In this document: positions 9,599 to 23,272 of the stretch, piece after piece
How the letters are laid out: every line of letters starts with the position of its first letter
Position numbering within the stretch: the first letter of the stretch is position 1
From: Anaerolineales bacterium
GTDB lineage: Bacteria; Chloroflexota; Anaerolineae; Anaerolineales; Villigracilaceae
NCBI GenBank assembly: GCA_024710905.1
Contig: JANJTV010000076.1
Location: 62,001-126,000 of the forward strand
Reading direction: 5' to 3'
Length of the DNA stretch: 64,000 nucleotides
Notes under the pieces: generated by a model
Told to the model about the DNA's origin: nothing
Seen by the model: the letters and a program-made list of their open reading frames with translations, nothing else
The model's database searches: none
Translations under genes and position numbers: made by a program

Positions 9599-9686
9599 CT
9601 TTCCATGACTTTTGTCATGATGACAACCTGCCAACCGCGCCCTATAATGAAAATAGGGATTGTTTTTTTTTATCCCCAAGGCACAT

Positions 9687-9953
9687 ATGAATTTATTGAA
9701 ATTCTTCCAGCCCGAACGCGCGCGCCGCGAAGTGATGAAAGCCGGGCAGGTTGTCCCCGACGCCAGCCGGTGCGTCCAATGTGGGATTTGCAATTACAAC
9801 TGCCCCATTGAAATTGATGTTCGCCGACATGCCTGGCAGGGCTTGCCGGTCATTCACAGCCAGTGCCTGACATGTGGCGAATGCGTGGCGCGCTGCCCAC
9901 GCGGCGTACTACAGTTTGTTCGCACAAACCTTTTCGAGGCTGATTCAAAATGA
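9687..9953 (+). CDS. 4Fe-4S dicluster ferredoxin-like protein (mirror copy)
   Basis: CVQCGICNYNCPI and CLTCGECVARCP. Confidence 0.9.
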   Translation: MNLLKFFQPERARREVMKAGQVVPDASRCVQCGICNYNCPIEIDVRRHAWQGLPVIHSQCLTCGECVARCPRGVLQFVRTNLFEADSK

Positions 9954-11269
9954 TGCGCTACGTCATTCTCGGGACAGGTGTTGCCGGGCTTGCGGCAGCA
10001 GAAGTCATCCGCGAACTGGATCGGCAAGGTCAGGTTATTTTTATATGCAAGGATCCGCAGGGGTATTATTCGCGTCCCGGGCTGGCCTATTACTTAAGCG
10101 GTGAACTCAATGAAGATCAGTTGTACCCCTACCAGGAAGAAGATTACAAAAAACTAGATGCCCGGTTTTATCAAGGGGCGGCCCTGAAAATAAACCCTGC
10201 CGAAAAACTGGTGGAGGTTGAAAATGGTCACACGGTAGCCTACGACCGCCTGCTGGTCGCAACCGGGGCCAGTGCGACCCGGTTGACCACCCCGGGCGCA
10301 AACCTGGGCGGAGTGTTTAAGCTCGACCACATTGAAGATGCCCGGCAGATCCTTGCCCGCGCTCGAAAATCCAAAGTGGCTGTTGTTACCGGTGGCGGCA
10401 TCACCGCCCTTGAACTCGCAGAAGGGCTGTCTGCCCGGGGGTTAAAGGTCCATTATGTCTATCGGAGCGAACGCTACTGGCCAAACGTGCTGGATGAAAG
10501 CGAAAGCCGCCTGGTTGAAAAGCGACTGGAACACGAGGGGATACACCTGCATCGTGGCAGCGAACTGACTGAAATCATCGGCGAACGCGGGTTGGTGAAA
10601 TCTGTCCTGCTCAATAATGGGGAGCAAATCAAATGTGACCTGGTTGCCTTTGCAATCGGCATTCAGCCGAGCATCGAGCTGGCCGCGCAGGCTGGCCTGT
10701 CCTGCGAACGAGGCATCCTGGTCGATCAACGCATGCGCACCTCAACAAGGGATATTTATGCCGCAGGGGATGTCGCCCAGGTATTTGACCCGATGATCGG
10801 GAAGCACGTCCTGGACAGCTTATGGGGACCAGCCCGCGAGCAGGGAAAAATCGCCGGGCAGAACATGGCCGGGCTGGCCGTTGAATACCAAAAACCCGCC
10901 CCTTACAACGTTACCCGACTGGCCGGGCTCACCGCCACAATCATTGGCACAGTGGGCGCTGGCAAGGTTGCAGACCTAGCAGGCATTGTTCGCGGCGACA
11001 GCGAAACATGGAGGAATATCCCGGGCGCGATAGTTGCACAAGGTGGTTTTGAGAACAACCACCTGCGGCTGATGGTCGGTGACAAACACATCGTTGGCGC
11101 CATCGTGATGGGTGATCAAAAACTCTCCTCACCGCTTCAACACATCATTCAAAAACAAATGGACATTTCCCTCATTCGAGATCAACTACTCAAAAAAGAT
11201 GCTCCAATTGCGGATATCCTGGCTGAATTCTGGGCAACAAGCACGACTGGACAAATAAAAGAAGGTTGA
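9950..11269 (+). CDS. FAD-dependent NAD(P)/disulfide-type oxidoreductase (mirror copy)
   Basis: GTGVAGLAAAEV FAD fold, VVTGGGITALELAEGL NAD(P) fold, DIYAAGDVAQ. Confidence 0.92.
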   Translation: MMRYVILGTGVAGLAAAEVIRELDRQGQVIFICKDPQGYYSRPGLAYYLSGELNEDQLYPYQEEDYKKLDARFYQGAALKINPAEKLVEVENGHTVAYDRLLVATGASATRLTTPGANLGGVFKLDHIEDARQILARARKSKVAVVTGGGITALELAEGLSARGLKVHYVYRSERYWPNVLDESESRLVEKRLEHEGIHLHRGSELTEIIGERGLVKSVLLNNGEQIKCDLVAFAIGIQPSIELAAQAGLSCERGILVDQRMRTSTRDIYAAGDVAQVFDPMIGKHVLDSLWGPAREQGKIAGQNMAGLAVEYQKPAPYNVTRLAGLTATIIGTVGAGKVADLAGIVRGDSETWRNIPGAIVAQGGFENNHLRLMVGDKHIVGAIVMGDQKLSSPLQHIIQKQMDISLIRDQLLKKDAPIADILAEFWATSTTGQIKEG

Positions 11270-11270
11270 T

Positions 11271-11834
11271 ATGCTCAAAAATGCAAAAGAATTATGGTTA
11301 GCCTTGCTGGCCTGTATTTTGATTACGATCTCATACGCCTGGGTGCTCTGGCTGGGGAACAAGATTCCCGCAGCCAGTGGATTTTATGGCCACACGATCG
11401 GGGTCCTTGGCTTTGTGCTCATGCTGGCCACCGAAATCTTGTATTCCCTGAGGAAGCGCTCCCGTTCTGCGCGCTGGGGCCGCACAGCTGACTGGCTGCA
11501 GTTCCATATTTTTACCGGCATTGTCGGGCCATACATGGTCTTGCTACATTCGTCCTGGAAGATTAACGGCCTGGCCGGGGCAACGCTACTCATGACAGGC
11601 GTGATTGTCTTTAGCGGATTCATTGGCCGCTACATCTATACACGCATCCCGCGCACAGCCGACGGCATCGAAGACACCGGCGCGCTGGGTGAAATGCAAG
11701 CCAGCGCCCTGGCCAATGCCCGGCGCCTGATGGCGCTCTGGCACACCATTCACATCCCCATCGGCATGGCTTTGTTTACTGCCGCCTTCGTTCATATCTT
11801 GGGCGCACTCTATTACGCCACCTTCCTGAGGTAG
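11271..11834 (+). CDS. Multi-TM membrane protein, cytochrome b/ferric reductase-like candidate (mirror copy)
   Basis: 187 aa, about 5 hydrophobic segments with conserved-looking His (FHIFTG, LLHSSW, LWHTIHIP, FVHILG); in tight operon. Confidence 0.7.
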   Translation: MLKNAKELWLALLACILITISYAWVLWLGNKIPAASGFYGHTIGVLGFVLMLATEILYSLRKRSRSARWGRTADWLQFHIFTGIVGPYMVLLHSSWKINGLAGATLLMTGVIVFSGFIGRYIYTRIPRTADGIEDTGALGEMQASALANARRLMALWHTIHIPIGMALFTAAFVHILGALYYATFLR

Positions 11835-11836
11835 CC

Positions 11837-13426
11837 ATGAACAACAATCGCATCGGCTGTCTTTCCCCGCTGGCAATCTTAAGCGCCTTCATAACCCTGG
11901 TGGTTATTATTGCCGCCGAGCTGCTTTCGGGCAATACATTATTCACTGCAGGCGCCCTTAATGCGCAACCTGGTCGCACAATGGGGGGCATCAGCAGCCA
12001 CGCAGAAATGGGGGGGGATTGCGGCCTGTGCCATGCCGCTCCATGGGATGCAGACAAAATGTCTGATCGATGTATGGCCTGCCATGAAAATATCCGAGAA
12101 GAACAACAAGACCCGGAAAGTATTCACGGGGCCATCGCAGCCGTTAATCCCGCCAGCGAATGCCGGGATTGTCATCCGGAACATAATGGCCCCAACGCCT
12201 CACTCATTGCAGATGAAATAAAAGGGTACCCTCACGAAAAGTCTGGGTTTTTGCTCACCGCGCACAGGCGCACCACAGACGGTATCCCGTTTCACTGCCG
12301 GGATTGCCACGCTGAAAGGTTCTCCGATTTTGAGCAGGACACCTGCACCCAGTGTCACCAGGCAATTGATCGTGGTTTTATGGATGCCCATCGCCAGGAT
12401 TTTGGCGAAAATTGCCAGGTCTGTCATGACGGGGCAGATCGATTTAGTGGTTTTAACCACAGCCAGACGAACTTCACCCTAGATGGGGAACACCTCAAGA
12501 TAGCCTGTTCGGGTTGTCACATCAACGCCAGGAAACCAGCCGATCTGGGGATTCTGCCAGTCGCCTGTGAGGCCTGCCACCGCCCGGATAATCCGCACAG
12601 GGAAAAATTCCCATCCTGCGGGGAATGCCATACATCTGCCGGGTGGAGCCCTGCCGAGTTTGATCACGACCTGGCCAGCTTCAAACTGGAGGGAGAACAC
12701 GCCGAAGCAGAGTGCAAGGACTGTCATCGTAACGGCATTCGTGAACAAGTTGCAAATGATTGCTATTCCTGCCATAAACAGGACGATGAACACAATGGCG
12801 AGTACGGCCAGGATTGCGCCGCCTGTCACGACCCGGCCAGTGACTGGGAAGATGCAATCATTGACCACAACCTGTTCAACTTCAAGTTGGATGGCGCACA
12901 CACACAGGTGGAATGCACACAATGTCACCTTGGCGGGGTTTTCAAAGGAATCCCGACCGACTGTTTTTCCTGCCACGCGCAGGACGATCAACATAACGGG
13001 CGGTTTGGGACAATCTGCTCCCTGTGTCATTCCACCAGTGATTGGGGCAGGATAATCTTCAGCCATAACCTGTCGCGCTTCCCCTTGACCGGCAGGCATG
13101 CTGACCTGTCATGCGAATCCTGTCATGCCGGCGGCAGGTTTACCAATACACCACTTACCTGCGCCGGATGTCATGGTGAACCCGCTTATCACGCAGGGAT
13201 GTTCAGCAGCAACTGCGCAAGTTGCCATAACACCAATAACTGGTCGGCCAGGTACACCGGCCCGCACCCGCAAATCTCCGATGATGATGGGGGCTCGGGT
13301 GTCAACCATGGCGGGCAGGGTTGTGGTTCCTGCCACACCAAAACACTGAGGGAAGCGAGCTGCTCAAACTGTCATGATGGGAATGATTTTGATGATGACG
13401 GTGATGACGGCGAGGATGACGATTAA
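11837..13426 (+). CDS. 20-heme c-type cytochrome (mirror copy)
   Basis: 20 CxxCH motifs counted in 529 aa; N-terminal hydrophobic anchor/signal; acidic C-terminal tail. Confidence 0.95.
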   Translation: MNNNRIGCLSPLAILSAFITLVVIIAAELLSGNTLFTAGALNAQPGRTMGGISSHAEMGGDCGLCHAAPWDADKMSDRCMACHENIREEQQDPESIHGAIAAVNPASECRDCHPEHNGPNASLIADEIKGYPHEKSGFLLTAHRRTTDGIPFHCRDCHAERFSDFEQDTCTQCHQAIDRGFMDAHRQDFGENCQVCHDGADRFSGFNHSQTNFTLDGEHLKIACSGCHINARKPADLGILPVACEACHRPDNPHREKFPSCGECHTSAGWSPAEFDHDLASFKLEGEHAEAECKDCHRNGIREQVANDCYSCHKQDDEHNGEYGQDCAACHDPASDWEDAIIDHNLFNFKLDGAHTQVECTQCHLGGVFKGIPTDCFSCHAQDDQHNGRFGTICSLCHSTSDWGRIIFSHNLSRFPLTGRHADLSCESCHAGGRFTNTPLTCAGCHGEPAYHAGMFSSNCASCHNTNNWSARYTGPHPQISDDDGGSGVNHGGQGCGSCHTKTLREASCSNCHDGNDFDDDGDDGEDDD

Positions 13427-13435
13427 TACAAAATA

Positions 13436-13462
13436 CGGCCGGGTGCAAAATGCACCCGGCCG
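13436..13462. terminator. Bidirectional terminator between convergent genes (mirror copy)
   Basis: cggccgggtgca-aaa-tgcacccggccg perfect 12-bp stem. Confidence 0.85.
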
Positions 13463-13481
13463 CTCACTCAGGAGGAACAAC

Positions 13482-14768
13482 TTATTTGATGGCCGGGGAG
13501 GCCACCGGGGCCACCTGCTGGCCGCTGTGATTGCTCTCGATGTTCATAATGGCCGGGACAAAGAAGGCAACCATGACAATCGCCAGGTTGAGCAGGGCCG
13601 TCACCCAGAACCAGGTGCGGATGCCGAACATGTCCGAGAGTGGCCCGGCGATTAGCAGGCCAAGTGGCATCATGGCGCTGGCGGCGCTGACCAGGATGGA
13701 AATAACACGCCCCTGCATGTCCTTACGGACAACCGTCTGCAACAGTGCATGGATTGGCCCATTCACAATCGGGCTGAGGAAACCGACAATGAACATGCCG
13801 CCCAGCGCCAGCGGGAACAATGCGGCTGGGGCAATGCCAATCAGGCCGACACCGATGCTAAAGCCAAGAATCCCGACCAGTGAGGTGACAATCTTGCGCT
13901 TGAAACCACCCCATACACCCAGGGTAACACCACCCAGGATCATGCCAATCCCAAAGACCGAATCAGTCAGGCCCAGCTCGAGCGCGCCCTTGCCAAAATG
14001 GCCAGTCACCAGCAAGGGCAGCAAGGCCGACATGGGTGTGAACAGGAAGTTAATCAACGTCGCCATAATGGAAATACCCAGCAGGCCCGGCCAGGAAACC
14101 ATATAAAGAAACCCTTCCTTGAAATCCTGGGCAAAACTGGTCGAATGGCCTGCCTGGCCTTCAACAACCTGACGTACCGGTTGGGGGACGCTGAGGAATA
14201 ACAGCGGCAGGATGGCCACCAGTGCGGTGCCAACATCAATCAAGAGCACATTTTGGGTGGGCATCACTTCTACAAAGAGGGCGCCAACCGGCGGGGCAAT
14301 GATGCTTACCAGGCCCTGCAGGGTCTGGTTCAGCCCGGCCACACGGGAGAGATGCTCCTGTGGAACCATCAGCGAGGTGGAAGCGGCCATGGCCGGGTGA
14401 TGGAAGGCCCCGCCCGCCGAACGGATGAACATGGCCACATAAATGTGCCAGATTTCCACCTGCCCGGTGAAAAACAGGTAGGCTAGAGCGAGCGTGACCA
14501 GCGCAATCGTGGCATCCGCCAGAATCATCACCAGCCTGCGGCTGTTGCGGTCAACAAATGTCCCCGCAATGGGGCCTAGCACAATTTGCGGCAGCAGGGC
14601 AAAGAGAGTGGCAATCGCCAGCACAGTGGCCGAGCCGGTTTCACGGGTCAGGTGCCAGACCAGCGCAAACTGCACCAACGCGGAGCCAAATAACGAGAAG
14701 GCCTGCCCGCCCCAGATGGCGAAGAAACGCAACGCCCAGTTTTTTGGCAGATCGTGTGAAGTTTCCAT
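13482..14768 (-). CDS. MFS transporter (mirror copy)
   Basis: 428 aa polytopic; WGGQAFSLFGSALVQFALVWHLTRETGSATVLA typical of enterobactin/macrolide exporter-type MFS. Confidence 0.88.
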   Translation of the reverse strand: METSHDLPKNWALRFFAIWGGQAFSLFGSALVQFALVWHLTRETGSATVLAIATLFALLPQIVLGPIAGTFVDRNSRRLVMILADATIALVTLALAYLFFTGQVEIWHIYVAMFIRSAGGAFHHPAMAASTSLMVPQEHLSRVAGLNQTLQGLVSIIAPPVGALFVEVMPTQNVLLIDVGTALVAILPLLFLSVPQPVRQVVEGQAGHSTSFAQDFKEGFLYMVSWPGLLGISIMATLINFLFTPMSALLPLLVTGHFGKGALELGLTDSVFGIGMILGGVTLGVWGGFKRKIVTSLVGILGFSIGVGLIGIAPAALFPLALGGMFIVGFLSPIVNGPIHALLQTVVRKDMQGRVISILVSAASAMMPLGLLIAGPLSDMFGIRTWFWVTALLNLAIVMVAFFVPAIMNIESNHSGQQVAPVASPAIK

Positions 14769-14965: not shown

Positions 14966-15964
14966 TTACCGAAGGATGTTTTTTTCGTAAAACACCCGTT
15001 TTGTAACCGTGCGGAAACCAACGCTTTCATACAGATGCAGCGCCTGGTTGGCGTTCTGGGTATCCACGCCCAGCATCGCCGCCTCCAGCCCCATTTCCCT
15101 GAACACCAGCAGGCTTCGCAAGAGCAGCGCCCGCGCCAGGCCGCGCTTCCGCCAGGGACGACGGGTAAAGATGGGGTCTGTCCAGCCAACGTTCGACCCA
15201 AGGTTTTGGTTGGCCGATTCGTCCACATAATTGAGCACCCCTGCCGCCACCTGCTCCCCATCCCAGGCCACCTGCCAGAGATGCGGCATAAACTGCGGGC
15301 TCACTTCGATTTGTGAAATAACTTCTTCACTGATCGGGGTATAGCCCCAGTGATCACGAAAGGCTTCATCCAGCGCATAGTAAACAGTCCGATACTCACC
15401 CTGCAACACGGGGCGTACTTCCAACCCATCGGGCAGGACAGCTGCATCAATCGGTTCCGACAACTCCCGCCGCATCTGGTACATCAGGCGCGCAGCTGAA
15501 AAACCCTGGGCTTCCAGCGCCTCACTGAACATCCCTTCGTTCTCTGCATTCCGTACAAGCACCCGGAGCAGGCTGGGCGAGTCGCCGCGCGTGGTTTCAG
15601 CCACCAAACGAGCGCGTTTCTCCACCCAATTCAGCAAATAAGTCATCAACTCATTCGAGCGATGTTCCGGGTGGATATTAAACGGGAACGAAAAGACCTG
15701 CCTGTTTTCGCCATCCAGTTCCCAGCCAACCCGCACATAGGCCACCAGAGTGCCTGCGGAGTCCTCCACCATCAGCATATCCTCTTCCGGAACCGAATGA
15801 ATCAAGTGCTGGTAATCGCGCTCAATCTCCTCGGCCGAAGTCCAGTACCCTGCTTCGTCGGCCAGCGAAATCGCCTGCAACAAACTGGCCATTTTCGGAA
15901 AATCGCCACTGCGCTCAAAAGAGCGAAATTTCAATCGGGCAATTGCATCCATTACGCGCCTCAC
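14966..15964 (-). CDS. GNAT family N-acetyltransferase, probably two-domain (mirror copy)
   Basis: 332 aa; RRPWRKRGLARALLLRSLLVFREMGLEAAMLGVDTQNANQALHLYESVGF. Confidence 0.88.
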   Translation of the reverse strand: MRRVMDAIARLKFRSFERSGDFPKMASLLQAISLADEAGYWTSAEEIERDYQHLIHSVPEEDMLMVEDSAGTLVAYVRVGWELDGENRQVFSFPFNIHPEHRSNELMTYLLNWVEKRARLVAETTRGDSPSLLRVLVRNAENEGMFSEALEAQGFSAARLMYQMRRELSEPIDAAVLPDGLEVRPVLQGEYRTVYYALDEAFRDHWGYTPISEEVISQIEVSPQFMPHLWQVAWDGEQVAAGVLNYVDESANQNLGSNVGWTDPIFTRRPWRKRGLARALLLRSLLVFREMGLEAAMLGVDTQNANQALHLYESVGFRTVTKRVFYEKNILR

Positions 15965-16347
15965 TTCATCCGTCCAGCCAGGGCTGCCTTGACGGGTTCG
16001 GGTGCATCAAACACACCGCGTACTTGCACCACCTCAAAAACCTCGGCAGCCAGTTCAGGCGTCACATCGGCATCCAAGTGAAACACCCCCACCACCGTGG
16101 CGGTCAGTTTCACCCCATCGGCAAGGCGTTTTTCGAGGTCAGCACGGCTGTAGTGCAGCACACCGATCACAAACGAGTGTCGGTTAACAGTTTGTTGAAT
16201 TTCCATGGTGTGTTTCTCCAGTTGAGAACGAATCGCCGTACGGATGAAATCCGTTCGGTTGCTATAGACCCCTTCCTGCACCAGCAGGTCAATCTTGCCA
16301 AGGTCCACAGCGTTCATATTGATGGTGATCTTTTCGCTATCGGGCAT
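15961..16347 (-). CDS. Ribbon-helix-helix (CopG/NikR-like) transcriptional regulator (mirror copy)
   Basis: KITINMNAVDLGKIDLLVQEGVYSNRTDFIRTAIRSQLE RHH signature. Confidence 0.85.
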   Translation of the reverse strand: MPDSEKITINMNAVDLGKIDLLVQEGVYSNRTDFIRTAIRSQLEKHTMEIQQTVNRHSFVIGVLHYSRADLEKRLADGVKLTATVVGVFHLDADVTPELAAEVFEVVQVRGVFDAPEPVKAALAGRMK

Positions 16348-16365
16348 ATTCATCTCCTTCTTATT

Positions 16366-16383
16366 ACCATCCATATGGATGGT
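16366..16383. promoter_or_regulatory. Operator-like palindrome (mirror copy)
   Basis: ACCATCCATATGGATGGT, perfect 18-bp dyad. Confidence 0.6.
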
Positions 16384-18102: not shown

Positions 18103-19389
18103 ATGGAAACTTCACACGATCTGCCAAAAAACTGGGCGTTGCGTTTCTTCGCCATCTGGGGCGGGCAGGCCTTCTCGTTATTTGGCTCCGCGTTGGTGCA
18201 GTTTGCGCTGGTCTGGCACCTGACCCGTGAAACCGGCTCGGCCACTGTGCTGGCGATTGCCACTCTCTTTGCCCTGCTGCCGCAAATTGTGCTAGGCCCC
18301 ATTGCGGGGACATTTGTTGACCGCAACAGCCGCAGGCTGGTGATGATTCTGGCGGATGCCACGATTGCGCTGGTCACGCTCGCTCTAGCCTACCTGTTTT
18401 TCACCGGGCAGGTGGAAATCTGGCACATTTATGTGGCCATGTTCATCCGTTCGGCGGGCGGGGCCTTCCATCACCCGGCCATGGCCGCTTCCACCTCGCT
18501 GATGGTTCCACAGGAGCATCTCTCCCGTGTGGCCGGGCTGAACCAGACCCTGCAGGGCCTGGTAAGCATCATTGCCCCGCCGGTTGGCGCCCTCTTTGTA
18601 GAAGTGATGCCCACCCAAAATGTGCTCTTGATTGATGTTGGCACCGCACTGGTGGCCATCCTGCCGCTGTTATTCCTCAGCGTCCCCCAACCGGTACGTC
18701 AGGTTGTTGAAGGCCAGGCAGGCCATTCGACCAGTTTTGCCCAGGATTTCAAGGAAGGGTTTCTTTATATGGTTTCCTGGCCGGGCCTGCTGGGTATTTC
18801 CATTATGGCGACGTTGATTAACTTCCTGTTCACACCCATGTCGGCCTTGCTGCCCTTGCTGGTGACTGGCCATTTTGGCAAGGGCGCGCTCGAGCTGGGC
18901 CTGACTGATTCGGTCTTTGGGATTGGCATGATCCTGGGTGGTGTTACCCTGGGTGTATGGGGTGGTTTCAAGCGCAAGATTGTCACCTCACTGGTCGGGA
19001 TTCTTGGCTTTAGCATCGGTGTCGGCCTGATTGGCATTGCCCCAGCCGCATTGTTCCCGCTGGCGCTGGGCGGCATGTTCATTGTCGGTTTCCTCAGCCC
19101 GATTGTGAATGGGCCAATCCATGCACTGTTGCAGACGGTTGTCCGTAAGGACATGCAGGGGCGTGTTATTTCCATCCTGGTCAGCGCCGCCAGCGCCATG
19201 ATGCCACTTGGCCTGCTAATCGCCGGGCCACTCTCGGACATGTTCGGCATCCGCACCTGGTTCTGGGTGACGGCCCTGCTCAACCTGGCGATTGTCATGG
19301 TTGCCTTCTTTGTCCCGGCCATTATGAACATCGAGAGCAATCACAGCGGCCAGCAGGTGGCCCCGGTGGCCTCCCCGGCCATCAAATAA
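18103..19389 (+). CDS. MFS transporter
   Basis: 428 aa polytopic MFS; AT-rich upstream region with TTGACA. Confidence 0.88.
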   Translation: METSHDLPKNWALRFFAIWGGQAFSLFGSALVQFALVWHLTRETGSATVLAIATLFALLPQIVLGPIAGTFVDRNSRRLVMILADATIALVTLALAYLFFTGQVEIWHIYVAMFIRSAGGAFHHPAMAASTSLMVPQEHLSRVAGLNQTLQGLVSIIAPPVGALFVEVMPTQNVLLIDVGTALVAILPLLFLSVPQPVRQVVEGQAGHSTSFAQDFKEGFLYMVSWPGLLGISIMATLINFLFTPMSALLPLLVTGHFGKGALELGLTDSVFGIGMILGGVTLGVWGGFKRKIVTSLVGILGFSIGVGLIGIAPAALFPLALGGMFIVGFLSPIVNGPIHALLQTVVRKDMQGRVISILVSAASAMMPLGLLIAGPLSDMFGIRTWFWVTALLNLAIVMVAFFVPAIMNIESNHSGQQVAPVASPAIK

Positions 19390-19408
19390 GTTGTTCCTCC
19401 TGAGTGAG

Positions 19409-19435
19409 CGGCCGGGTGCATTTTGCACCCGGCCG
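19409..19435. terminator. Bidirectional terminator between convergent MFS and cytochrome genes
   Basis: 12-bp perfect GC-rich stem, 3-nt loop. Confidence 0.85.
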
Positions 19436-19444
19436 TATTTTGTA

Positions 19445-21034
19445 TTAATCGTCATCCTCGCCGTCATCACCGTCATCATCAAAATCATTCCCATCATGAC
19501 AGTTTGAGCAGCTCGCTTCCCTCAGTGTTTTGGTGTGGCAGGAACCACAACCCTGCCCGCCATGGTTGACACCCGAGCCCCCATCATCATCGGAGATTTG
19601 CGGGTGCGGGCCGGTGTACCTGGCCGACCAGTTATTGGTGTTATGGCAACTTGCGCAGTTGCTGCTGAACATCCCTGCGTGATAAGCGGGTTCACCATGA
19701 CATCCGGCGCAGGTAAGTGGTGTATTGGTAAACCTGCCGCCGGCATGACAGGATTCGCATGACAGGTCAGCATGCCTGCCGGTCAAGGGGAAGCGCGACA
19801 GGTTATGGCTGAAGATTATCCTGCCCCAATCACTGGTGGAATGACACAGGGAGCAGATTGTCCCAAACCGCCCGTTATGTTGATCGTCCTGCGCGTGGCA
19901 GGAAAAACAGTCGGTCGGGATTCCTTTGAAAACCCCGCCAAGGTGACATTGTGTGCATTCCACCTGTGTGTGTGCGCCATCCAACTTGAAGTTGAACAGG
20001 TTGTGGTCAATGATTGCATCTTCCCAGTCACTGGCCGGGTCGTGACAGGCGGCGCAATCCTGGCCGTACTCGCCATTGTGTTCATCGTCCTGTTTATGGC
20101 AGGAATAGCAATCATTTGCAACTTGTTCACGAATGCCGTTACGATGACAGTCCTTGCACTCTGCTTCGGCGTGTTCTCCCTCCAGTTTGAAGCTGGCCAG
20201 GTCGTGATCAAACTCGGCAGGGCTCCACCCGGCAGATGTATGGCATTCCCCGCAGGATGGGAATTTTTCCCTGTGCGGATTATCCGGGCGGTGGCAGGCC
20301 TCACAGGCGACTGGCAGAATCCCCAGATCGGCTGGTTTCCTGGCGTTGATGTGACAACCCGAACAGGCTATCTTGAGGTGTTCCCCATCTAGGGTGAAGT
20401 TCGTCTGGCTGTGGTTAAAACCACTAAATCGATCTGCCCCGTCATGACAGACCTGGCAATTTTCGCCAAAATCCTGGCGATGGGCATCCATAAAACCACG
20501 ATCAATTGCCTGGTGACACTGGGTGCAGGTGTCCTGCTCAAAATCGGAGAACCTTTCAGCGTGGCAATCCCGGCAGTGAAACGGGATACCGTCTGTGGTG
20601 CGCCTGTGCGCGGTGAGCAAAAACCCAGACTTTTCGTGAGGGTACCCTTTTATTTCATCTGCAATGAGTGAGGCGTTGGGGCCATTATGTTCCGGATGAC
20701 AATCCCGGCATTCGCTGGCGGGATTAACGGCTGCGATGGCCCCGTGAATACTTTCCGGGTCTTGTTGTTCTTCTCGGATATTTTCATGGCAGGCCATACA
20801 TCGATCAGACATTTTGTCTGCATCCCATGGAGCGGCATGGCACAGGCCGCAATCCCCCCCCATTTCTGCGTGGCTGCTGATGCCCCCCATTGTGCGACCA
20901 GGTTGCGCATTAAGGGCGCCTGCAGTGAATAATGTATTGCCCGAAAGCAGCTCGGCGGCAATAATAACCACCAGGGTTATGAAGGCGCTTAAGATTGCCA
21001 GCGGGGAAAGACAGCCGATGCGATTGTTGTTCAT
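19445..21034 (-). CDS. 20-heme c-type cytochrome
   Basis: 20 CxxCH motifs; repeating three-heme units; tail DFDDDGDDGEDDD. Confidence 0.95.
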   Translation of the reverse strand: MNNNRIGCLSPLAILSAFITLVVIIAAELLSGNTLFTAGALNAQPGRTMGGISSHAEMGGDCGLCHAAPWDADKMSDRCMACHENIREEQQDPESIHGAIAAVNPASECRDCHPEHNGPNASLIADEIKGYPHEKSGFLLTAHRRTTDGIPFHCRDCHAERFSDFEQDTCTQCHQAIDRGFMDAHRQDFGENCQVCHDGADRFSGFNHSQTNFTLDGEHLKIACSGCHINARKPADLGILPVACEACHRPDNPHREKFPSCGECHTSAGWSPAEFDHDLASFKLEGEHAEAECKDCHRNGIREQVANDCYSCHKQDDEHNGEYGQDCAACHDPASDWEDAIIDHNLFNFKLDGAHTQVECTQCHLGGVFKGIPTDCFSCHAQDDQHNGRFGTICSLCHSTSDWGRIIFSHNLSRFPLTGRHADLSCESCHAGGRFTNTPLTCAGCHGEPAYHAGMFSSNCASCHNTNNWSARYTGPHPQISDDDGGSGVNHGGQGCGSCHTKTLREASCSNCHDGNDFDDDGDDGEDDD

Positions 21035-21036
21035 GG

Positions 21037-21600
21037 CTACCTCAGGAAGGTGGCGTAATAGAGTGCGCCCAAGATATGAACGAAGGCGGCAGTAAACAAA
21101 GCCATGCCGATGGGGATGTGAATGGTGTGCCAGAGCGCCATCAGGCGCCGGGCATTGGCCAGGGCGCTGGCTTGCATTTCACCCAGCGCGCCGGTGTCTT
21201 CGATGCCGTCGGCTGTGCGCGGGATGCGTGTATAGATGTAGCGGCCAATGAATCCGCTAAAGACAATCACGCCTGTCATGAGTAGCGTTGCCCCGGCCAG
21301 GCCGTTAATCTTCCAGGACGAATGTAGCAAGACCATGTATGGCCCGACAATGCCGGTAAAAATATGGAACTGCAGCCAGTCAGCTGTGCGGCCCCAGCGC
21401 GCAGAACGGGAGCGCTTCCTCAGGGAATACAAGATTTCGGTGGCCAGCATGAGCACAAAGCCAAGGACCCCGATCGTGTGGCCATAAAATCCACTGGCTG
21501 CGGGAATCTTGTTCCCCAGCCAGAGCACCCAGGCGTATGAGATCGTAATCAAAATACAGGCCAGCAAGGCTAACCATAATTCTTTTGCATTTTTGAGCAT
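21037..21600 (-). CDS. Multi-TM membrane protein, cytochrome b/ferric reductase-like candidate
   Basis: about 5 TM segments with several intramembrane His; 2-bp gap to cytochrome gene. Confidence 0.7.
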   Translation of the reverse strand: MLKNAKELWLALLACILITISYAWVLWLGNKIPAASGFYGHTIGVLGFVLMLATEILYSLRKRSRSARWGRTADWLQFHIFTGIVGPYMVLLHSSWKINGLAGATLLMTGVIVFSGFIGRYIYTRIPRTADGIEDTGALGEMQASALANARRLMALWHTIHIPIGMALFTAAFVHILGALYYATFLR

Positions 21601-21601
21601 A

Positions 21602-22921
21602 TCAACCTTCTTTTATTTGTCCAGTCGTGCTTGTTGCCCAGAATTCAGCCAGGATATCCGCAATTGGAGCATCTTTTTTGAGTAGTTGATCTCGAATGAG
21701 GGAAATGTCCATTTGTTTTTGAATGATGTGTTGAAGCGGTGAGGAGAGTTTTTGATCACCCATCACGATGGCGCCAACGATGTGTTTGTCACCGACCATC
21801 AGCCGCAGGTGGTTGTTCTCAAAACCACCTTGTGCAACTATCGCGCCCGGGATATTCCTCCATGTTTCGCTGTCGCCGCGAACAATGCCTGCTAGGTCTG
21901 CAACCTTGCCAGCGCCCACTGTGCCAATGATTGTGGCGGTGAGCCCGGCCAGTCGGGTAACGTTGTAAGGGGCGGGTTTTTGGTATTCAACGGCCAGCCC
22001 GGCCATGTTCTGCCCGGCGATTTTTCCCTGCTCGCGGGCTGGTCCCCATAAGCTGTCCAGGACGTGCTTCCCGATCATCGGGTCAAATACCTGGGCGACA
22101 TCCCCTGCGGCATAAATATCCCTTGTTGAGGTGCGCATGCGTTGATCGACCAGGATGCCTCGTTCGCAGGACAGGCCAGCCTGCGCGGCCAGCTCGATGC
22201 TCGGCTGAATGCCGATTGCAAAGGCAACCAGGTCACATTTGATTTGCTCCCCATTATTGAGCAGGACAGATTTCACCAACCCGCGTTCGCCGATGATTTC
22301 AGTCAGTTCGCTGCCACGATGCAGGTGTATCCCCTCGTGTTCCAGTCGCTTTTCAACCAGGCGGCTTTCGCTTTCATCCAGCACGTTTGGCCAGTAGCGT
22401 TCGCTCCGATAGACATAATGGACCTTTAACCCCCGGGCAGACAGCCCTTCTGCGAGTTCAAGGGCGGTGATGCCGCCACCGGTAACAACAGCCACTTTGG
22501 ATTTTCGAGCGCGGGCAAGGATCTGCCGGGCATCTTCAATGTGGTCGAGCTTAAACACTCCGCCCAGGTTTGCGCCCGGGGTGGTCAACCGGGTCGCACT
22601 GGCCCCGGTTGCGACCAGCAGGCGGTCGTAGGCTACCGTGTGACCATTTTCAACCTCCACCAGTTTTTCGGCAGGGTTTATTTTCAGGGCCGCCCCTTGA
22701 TAAAACCGGGCATCTAGTTTTTTGTAATCTTCTTCCTGGTAGGGGTACAACTGATCTTCATTGAGTTCACCGCTTAAGTAATAGGCCAGCCCGGGACGCG
22801 AATAATACCCCTGCGGATCCTTGCATATAAAAATAACCTGACCTTGCCGATCCAGTTCGCGGATGACTTCTGCTGCCGCAAGCCCGGCAACACCTGTCCC
22901 GAGAATGACGTAGCGCATCAT
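21602..22921 (-). CDS. FAD-dependent NAD(P)/disulfide-type oxidoreductase
   Basis: Two dinucleotide-binding folds; 1-bp gap to membrane protein gene. Confidence 0.92.
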   Translation of the reverse strand: MMRYVILGTGVAGLAAAEVIRELDRQGQVIFICKDPQGYYSRPGLAYYLSGELNEDQLYPYQEEDYKKLDARFYQGAALKINPAEKLVEVENGHTVAYDRLLVATGASATRLTTPGANLGGVFKLDHIEDARQILARARKSKVAVVTGGGITALELAEGLSARGLKVHYVYRSERYWPNVLDESESRLVEKRLEHEGIHLHRGSELTEIIGERGLVKSVLLNNGEQIKCDLVAFAIGIQPSIELAAQAGLSCERGILVDQRMRTSTRDIYAAGDVAQVFDPMIGKHVLDSLWGPAREQGKIAGQNMAGLAVEYQKPAPYNVTRLAGLTATIIGTVGAGKVADLAGIVRGDSETWRNIPGAIVAQGGFENNHLRLMVGDKHIVGAIVMGDQKLSSPLQHIIQKQMDISLIRDQLLKKDAPIADILAEFWATSTTGQIKEG

Positions 22922-23184
22922 TTTGAATCAGCCTCGAAAAGGTTTGTGCGAACAAACTGTAGTACGCCGCGTGGGCAGCGCGCCACGCATTCGCCACATG
23001 TCAGGCACTGGCTGTGAATGACCGGCAAGCCCTGCCAGGCATGTCGGCGAACATCAATTTCAATGGGGCAGTTGTAATTGCAAATCCCACATTGGACGCA
23101 CCGGCTGGCGTCGGGGACAACCTGCCCGGCTTTCATCACTTCGCGGCGCGCGCGTTCGGGCTGGAAGAATTTCAATAAATTCAT
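22918..23184 (-). CDS. 4Fe-4S dicluster ferredoxin-like protein
   Basis: CxxCxxCxxxC x2; overlaps oxidoreductase gene by 4 bp. Confidence 0.9.
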   Translation of the reverse strand: MNLLKFFQPERARREVMKAGQVVPDASRCVQCGICNYNCPIEIDVRRHAWQGLPVIHSQCLTCGECVARCPRGVLQFVRTNLFEADSK

Positions 23185-23272
23185 ATGTGCCTTGGGGATA
23201 AAAAAAAACAATCCCTATTTTCATTATAGGGCGCGGTTGGCAGGTTGTCATCATGACAAAAGTCATGGAAAG

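Follow-up and report, generated by a model that had tools for sequence, protein, structure and literature searches.

Organization of the Four-Gene Locus

The 64-kb stretch of DNA analysed here, hereafter called the window, contains a compact cluster of four genes encoding a ferredoxin (FER), a flavoprotein (FAD), a membrane protein (MEM), and a multiheme c-type cytochrome (CYT). All coordinates refer to the whole window, in which the cluster is read on the minus strand at 19445-23184 and is mirrored by a plus-strand copy at 9687-13426. FER (22918-23184 (−), mirrored at 9687-9953 (+)) encodes, from its ATG, an 88-amino-acid (aa) ferredoxin that contains two CxxCxxCxxxCP motifs and scores above the cut-off for Pfam Fer4 families, and FAD (21602-22921 (−), mirrored at 9950-11269 (+)) encodes a 439-aa Pyr_redox_2 flavoprotein (7e-57). 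These genes are followed by MEM (21037-21600 (−), mirrored at 11271-11834 (+)), whose 187-aa membrane protein is a predicted di-heme b cytochrome, and by CYT (19445-21034 (−), mirrored at 11837-13426 (+)), encoding a 529-aa 20-heme c-type cytochrome predicted to be exported or anchored.

The successive intergenic distances from FER to CYT are −4, +1, and +2 bp. The coordinates that we re-derived were identical to those of an earlier annotation of this DNA (hereafter the initial annotation), whose four open reading frames and spacing are thus confirmed. A promoter-like site (23223-23251 (−), mirrored at 9620-9648 (+); ATGACA-17-TATAAT, 11 of 12 consensus positions) was detected upstream of FER, and a terminator-like hairpin (19408-19436, mirrored at 13435-13463; 13-bp stem with 10 G-C pairs, loop of 3) between CYT and a convergent gene of the major facilitator superfamily (MFS). 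Both are pattern matches only, and as such would bracket FER-FAD-MEM-CYT as a single unit. We propose that the four products probably, if by no means securely, constitute one membrane-spanning electron conduit leading from NAD(P)H or ferredoxin to an extracellular acceptor.

FER and FAD, a Predicted Cytosolic Input

FER is a 2[4Fe-4S] ferredoxin in which all eight cysteines are invariant across 39 homologues. The nearest models of FAD are PadH and NirB, and its best match in the PDB is 8c0z_E, the FAD subunit of an aldehyde oxidoreductase. FAD has no redox cysteine at position 43, which is occupied by proline in 96% of 48 homologues; a role as a disulfide reductase, of the CoA-disulfide reductase/NADH oxidase subgroup, was thus rejected. 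The missing cysteine is as expected for a flavoprotein that would pass its electrons to an iron–sulfur (FeS) partner.

MEM, a Predicted Di-Heme b Cytochrome

Four histidines, H79 and H93 in helix 3 and H161 and H175 in helix 5, were invariant in an alignment of MEM with 22 divergent homologues (identity to the query down to 22%). They form two H-x13-H pairs, an arrangement that fits a predicted di-heme b cytochrome carrying one heme near each membrane face. Because the loops preceding helices 3 and 5 are positively charged (mean net charge +5.5 and +3.5, respectively), the positive-inside rule places H79/H161 toward the cytosolic side of the membrane and H93/H175 toward its outer side. The paired histidines postulated by the initial annotation are thus present, and its b-heme assignment withstood the check for their absence. 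Five helices were predicted in MEM and were also seen in a low-confidence AlphaFold2 model.

A search of the PDB by sequence returned nothing significant for MEM, and a match to the ferric reductase 5o0t (E 0.22) was dismissed as due to chance. Against the family of prokaryotic cytochrome b561 and Ni-hydrogenase cytochrome b (PF01292), MEM scored 23.0 bits, below the gathering score of 30.1 bits, and 10 of the 22 homologues matched this family at E ≤ 0.01. A distant relation of MEM to the PF01292 family is thus possible.

CYT, a Chain of Tri-Heme Units

CYT contains 20 CxxCH motifs, 41 cysteines, and 41 histidines, of which 21 lie outside the CxxCH motifs and could provide about one distal ligand per heme. 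A hydrophobic segment at its N-terminus is predicted to act as a signal or anchor; this supports the exported location claimed in the initial annotation, which the check for a cytoplasmic cytochrome did not refute. In close relatives, the spacing of the motifs follows a near-constant head (17,30,45,16,23,32,20,18), then (32,16,18) repeats and a short tail. In the CYT of the window, three tandem tri-heme units with this repeated (32,16,18) spacing are located at 19625-20215 (−), approximately residues 274-470. A consensus drawn from 119 units of relatives defines a repeat of about 64 aa with three CxxCH motifs and three conserved distal histidines, and the heme totals of the family run from 14 to 47, mostly stepping by three.

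CYT belongs to the cytochrome c7/c3 superfamily, with scores of 77.8 bits for Cytochrome_C7 (PF14522, gathering score 24.8) and 74.0 bits for Cytochrom_c3_2 (PF14537, gathering score 25). No match to nanowire_3heme (TIGR04257) was listed for the CYT of the window, and a relative (locus L063) reached 8 bits against a curated cut-off of 40 bits; membership of that family was thus rejected. CYT had no match in the PDB by phmmer, and the profile of its repeat unit gave weak matches to nine-heme cytochromes and OmcA only.

CYT could serve not as a wire but as a terminal reductase, or as a store of heme or electrons, with the module acting on a soluble acceptor or in defence against oxidative stress. 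Catalytic multiheme cytochromes exist, and many hemes could store charge, but with 21 distal histidines for 20 CxxCH motifs, and with distal histidines conserved in each unit, there is hardly any indication of a heme left open for catalysis. Since heme numbers between 14 and 47 that differ by whole units are also unusual for an enzyme, we consider such a role very improbable.

Additional CYT paralogues were observed in or beside the operon in two loci (L063, 7466-9964, 35 CxxCH; L110, 10971-14438, 47 CxxCH). A second type of large cytochrome, composed of di-heme repeats with (17,22) or (17,25) spacing and containing up to 34 CxxCH, was found beside the module in L087, L089, L091, L092, and L093.

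Conservation of the Module

Among 41 related genomes, 21 contained both MEM and CYT, 19 contained neither, and one (G001) contained MEM without CYT. Relatives at 40-80% protein identity retain the same gene grouping, and the linkage therefore exceeds what would be expected by chance. A multiheme cytochrome, FAD, and FER were all found near MEM in 17 of 17 same-family loci and in 6 of 6 same-order loci. In a class-wide sample of 20, in which some contigs end beside MEM, a multiheme cytochrome was near MEM in 17 cases, FAD in 16, and FER in 16. Genes for cytochrome c assembly were present, but are also found in relatives without MEM, and are thus not specific evidence.

The genes were repeatedly seen in two arrangements, FER-FAD-MEM-CYT and MEM-CYT-FER-FAD, the latter in L091-L093, L157, and L164. 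A varying order could suggest that the four genes are mere neighbours with no joint function; however, the association outlasts rearrangement, divergence, fusion, and, in another phylum, replacement of the flavoprotein, and we give this explanation hardly any credence. The conserved four-gene unit of the initial annotation thus finds support in the adjacency of these genes in relatives, and it survived the test of conserved order.

The MEM of G001 is joined in one protein to a domain with five CxxCH motifs that is unlike CYT, a natural fusion of MEM to a multiheme partner. The corresponding locus (L094, 3994-14919) encodes an FAD-FHA fusion, a ferredoxin with cyclic-nucleotide-binding domains, the MEM-five-heme fusion, and two protein kinases, and has the appearance of a regulated version of the module.

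Six genomes that encode photosynthetic reaction centres also carry the cluster (L096-L101, in G051, G063, G300, G098, G293, and G279); five of their cytochromes have 15 hemes and the sixth cluster is cut by a contig end. Especially in such phototroph-like genomes, electrons could flow inward, CYT gathering them from outside the cell, for instance from Fe(II), a mineral, or a partner cell, with MEM, FER, and FAD delivering them to NAD(P)+ or ferredoxin. Every member of the chain is in principle redox-reversible, and a Chloroflexota isolate is reported both to take up and to give off electrons (PMC5808234). Most sampled carriers, however, are non-phototrophic, Anaerolineae-type genomes, and reaching the potential of NAD(P)H on the negative side would demand a low-potential donor or an input of energy, for which no coupling part is visible. 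We thus regard inward flow as improbable.

MEM as a Proposed Hub in Several Phyla

Of 198 genomes from a Desulfobacterota-type phylum, 10 contained a homologue of MEM, as did 13 of 121 from a Gemmatimonadota-type phylum. A multiheme cytochrome, with up to 51 CxxCH motifs, lies close to MEM in all 20 loci examined from the two phyla. The initial annotation had placed the module in Chloroflexota, where it is indeed conserved, but pairs of MEM and a cytochrome are evidently not confined to that phylum.

A different protein, in which a ferredoxin is fused to a flavoprotein, adjoins MEM in 7 of 10 Gemmatimonadota loci (L201-L206 and L208); the fusion was confirmed with Pfam in L203 and L206. This neighbour may represent a convergent cytosolic flavin/FeS input. 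One further Gemmatimonadota locus (L207) contains a complete FER-FAD-MEM-cytochrome set. Conversely, in f40-like Chloroflexota, FAD, FER, and MEM occur without a multiheme cytochrome in 8 of 8 loci (L103-L109 and L115). As FAD and FER persist with MEM where the cytochrome is missing, and MEM persists with a cytochrome where FAD and FER are missing, MEM would link two partners. Such a pattern is expected if MEM joins a cytosolic flavin/FeS module to a multiheme cytochrome and either side can be lost or replaced. MEM would then mark conduits of this kind in at least three phyla.

In several of the f40-like loci, the next gene encodes a membrane protein of 128-137 aa. In L190 (2256-3584 (−), 443 aa) and L191 (11199-12455 (+), 419 aa), MEM and cytochromes with 35 and 44 hemes, respectively, are followed by proteins that appear barrel-like by eye and have no Pfam match; these proteins could possibly be the outer-membrane part of the same conduit.

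Proposed Route of Electrons

In the proposed conduit, FAD would oxidise NAD(P)H, or exchange electrons with ferredoxin, in the cytosol, and would pass electrons singly to the two [4Fe-4S] clusters of FER. In MEM, electrons would move from an inner b-heme held by H79/H161 to an outer b-heme held by H93/H175, each with bis-histidine ligation, and would thereby cross the membrane to CYT. Outside the membrane, CYT, either anchored or released, would carry them along a chain of bis-histidine c-hemes arranged in tri-heme c7-like units. Their acceptor would lie outside the cell and could be, for example, Fe(III), humics, another cytochrome, or a partner cell.

The linkage of the genes, the cofactor motifs, the invariant histidines, the predicted topology, the repeat structure, and the conservation all find support in the sequences. 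We infer the formation of a complex, the loading and pairing of the hemes, the order and direction of the electrons, their donor and acceptor, and the role of the module. The route from NAD(P)H/ferredoxin through FAD/FeS and b-heme to exported hemes, as drawn in the initial annotation, agrees in its order with the topology and the genome context, whereas its function, direction, and immediate donor are presumptive. Electrons would leave the negative side unaccompanied by protons; on its own, the route is therefore unlikely to conserve energy, and it may serve redox balancing.

Two observations speak against this conduit. The AlphaFold2 models, built from shallow alignments, have a mean predicted local distance difference test score of 57 for MEM and 42 for CYT, too poor to judge the pairing of the hemes. 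Furthermore, FAD and FER were found at none of the ten Desulfobacterota loci with MEM and multiheme cytochromes, and MEM can thus be fed otherwise, probably by quinol. These ten loci also favour the principal alternative, according to which MEM, reduced directly by quinol, would act chiefly as a menaquinol:multiheme-cytochrome oxidoreductase comparable to CbcL or Mco (see below), and FAD and FER either as a regulator or as an accessory dehydrogenase that supplies the quinone pool. MEM resembles cytochromes of the b561/Ni-hydrogenase b family, for which quinones are reaction partners; this is in agreement with a quinol input, and known multiheme systems mostly begin at quinol (PMC6295460, PMC9012536). 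However, the retention of FAD and FER with MEM in all eight cytochrome-less loci, and the presence of another flavin/FeS protein next to MEM in Gemmatimonadota, both point to direct contact, and we judge the quinol-fed alternative unlikely, although it is the one to be taken most seriously.

Returning to the conduit fed by NAD(P)H or ferredoxin, we tentatively raise the further possibility, itself rather doubtful, that it represents an undescribed and widespread class of quinone-independent conduits. In this class, cytosolic NAD(P)H or ferredoxin would feed the di-heme MEM directly, the heme chain would grow by tri-heme units, and MEM would be a shared hub whose input and output have been swapped independently between phyla, including in genomes with reaction centres.

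Copy Number and Flanking Genes

The minus-strand cluster is, base for base, the exact reverse complement of the plus-strand copy, and positions 1-32871 of the window form a perfect inverted repeat with no spacer, 16,435-bp arms, and 0 mismatches. This repeat belongs to a contig-wide palindrome. The contig (C62, in genome G000 of 154 contigs) is 156,870 bp long and includes the window at C62:30871-94870; the axis of symmetry falls at contig position 78435.5, the exact midpoint, and a further 20 kb beyond the window mirrors with 0 mismatches in a comparison that stopped short of the contig ends. An axis at the exact midpoint, combined with mismatch-free mirroring, indicates that the contig is almost certainly an assembly fold-back artefact that is its own reverse complement.

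An operon duplication was therefore rejected, the contig being palindromic around its midpoint wherever compared, and the copy at 9687-13426, listed as a mirror copy in the initial annotation, is better regarded as part of the artefact than as a second locus. Outside C62, no further match to MEM or CYT was found in the same genome at the thresholds used, and only weak paralogues of FAD were detected. Given the fold-back, it is thus most likely that the locus exists as a single genomic copy. The fold-back probably doubles the genes of the contig and may inflate the contamination estimate of 6.84%.

In the window, the four genes are flanked by a PHP-domain gene and the MFS gene. The latter (18103-19389 (+) and 13482-14768 (−)) encodes a Mef-type efflux-like transporter convergent to CYT; in L061, L062, L080, L082, L085, and L086, CYT is likewise followed by a membrane protein of about this size in convergent orientation. 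Near the axis of the palindrome, a gene for a ribbon-helix-helix regulator (RHH_8, NikR-like; 15961-16374 (−)) overlaps a GNAT acetyltransferase gene (14966-15964 (−)).

Comparison with Known Systems

The initial annotation had set the module apart from the Mtr and FLEET systems. In agreement with this view, the window contains no barrel-like gene adjoining CYT, as would be expected of an Mtr-type porin-cytochrome conduit, and no neighbouring Ndh2, EetA, or EetB genes of the FLEET type (Ndh2/EetAB), a multiheme cytochrome being present instead. Anaerolineales genomes were previously noted to encode large cytochromes that vary in their number of hemes, without a porin-cytochrome complex (PMC7399161); the FAD-FER-MEM operon and the tri-heme step are not described in the part of that account available to us. 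More generally, no description of the operon was found in the searched literature, which covered few subscription papers or preprints and is thus weak evidence of novelty. A presumably monoderm Chloroflexota isolate whose proteins carry at most seven hemes exchanges electrons with electrodes (PMC5808234).

As an extended chain of tandem tri-heme c7/c3-like units, CYT resembles the dodecaheme cytochrome GSU1996 and the nanowire_3heme and HmcA-type cytochromes. It differs from these in the sequence of its unit and in its N-terminal head; the match to the HmcA model reached 36 of 400 bits.

Ferric reductases and NADPH oxidases (FRE/NOX) send electrons outward from a cytosolic NAD(P)H-FAD moiety through two stacked b-hemes, whose ligands are histidine pairs of the H-x13-H type in the third and fifth helices. 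The module shares with them the cytosolic flavin input and the two b-hemes predicted on H-x13-H-type pairs of helices 3 and 5. In contrast to FRE/NOX, the module has its flavin on a protein of its own, connected through an FeS relay, and its partner on the outer side is a multiheme cytochrome; the Ferric_reduct Pfam domain was not matched in any of 22 MEM members.

The two conserved bis-histidine sites of MEM and the adjacency of CYT, as an outside multiheme partner, in relatives are the sequence features of a conduit that combines b-hemes with multiheme c-type cytochromes. The closest analogues are systems that the initial annotation did not name. CbcL, MtoC, and MtrH, from Geobacter and others, likewise combine a di-heme b-type membrane domain with a multiheme c-part outside the membrane, containing 3-23 hemes; no CbcL homologues were counted in Chloroflexi (PMC6295460). 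CbcL is, however, one fused chain, with the c-part first, mostly six helices, and a proposed quinol feed. MEM and CYT do not share this single-polypeptide architecture: they are separate proteins, the gene for the b-part precedes that for the c-part, MEM has five helices, the third and fifth of which bear its histidine pairs, and FAD and FER are added. Mco of anaerobic methanotrophic archaea (ANME) is similar in being encoded by two paired genes, one for a cytochrome b in the membrane and one for a multiheme cytochrome (7-11 hemes), in cells without an outer membrane (PMC9012536); the host group of the module is bacterial. As described, it differs from the module in its VhtC-derived b subunit, its use of methanophenazine, and its smaller cytochrome, and no flavin/FeS partner is described for it (PMC9012536).

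The best reading of the module is a conduit that would operate in the manner of CbcL or Mco and receive its electrons from a flavoprotein in the cytosol. In Anaerolineae-type Chloroflexota, whose cells are thought to lack an outer membrane, it is a candidate for the inner half of the path from cytosolic carriers to exported hemes. The number of hemes served by one and the same input ranges from 14 to 47 and mostly changes by three, which also offers a natural series for relating electron transfer to chain length.

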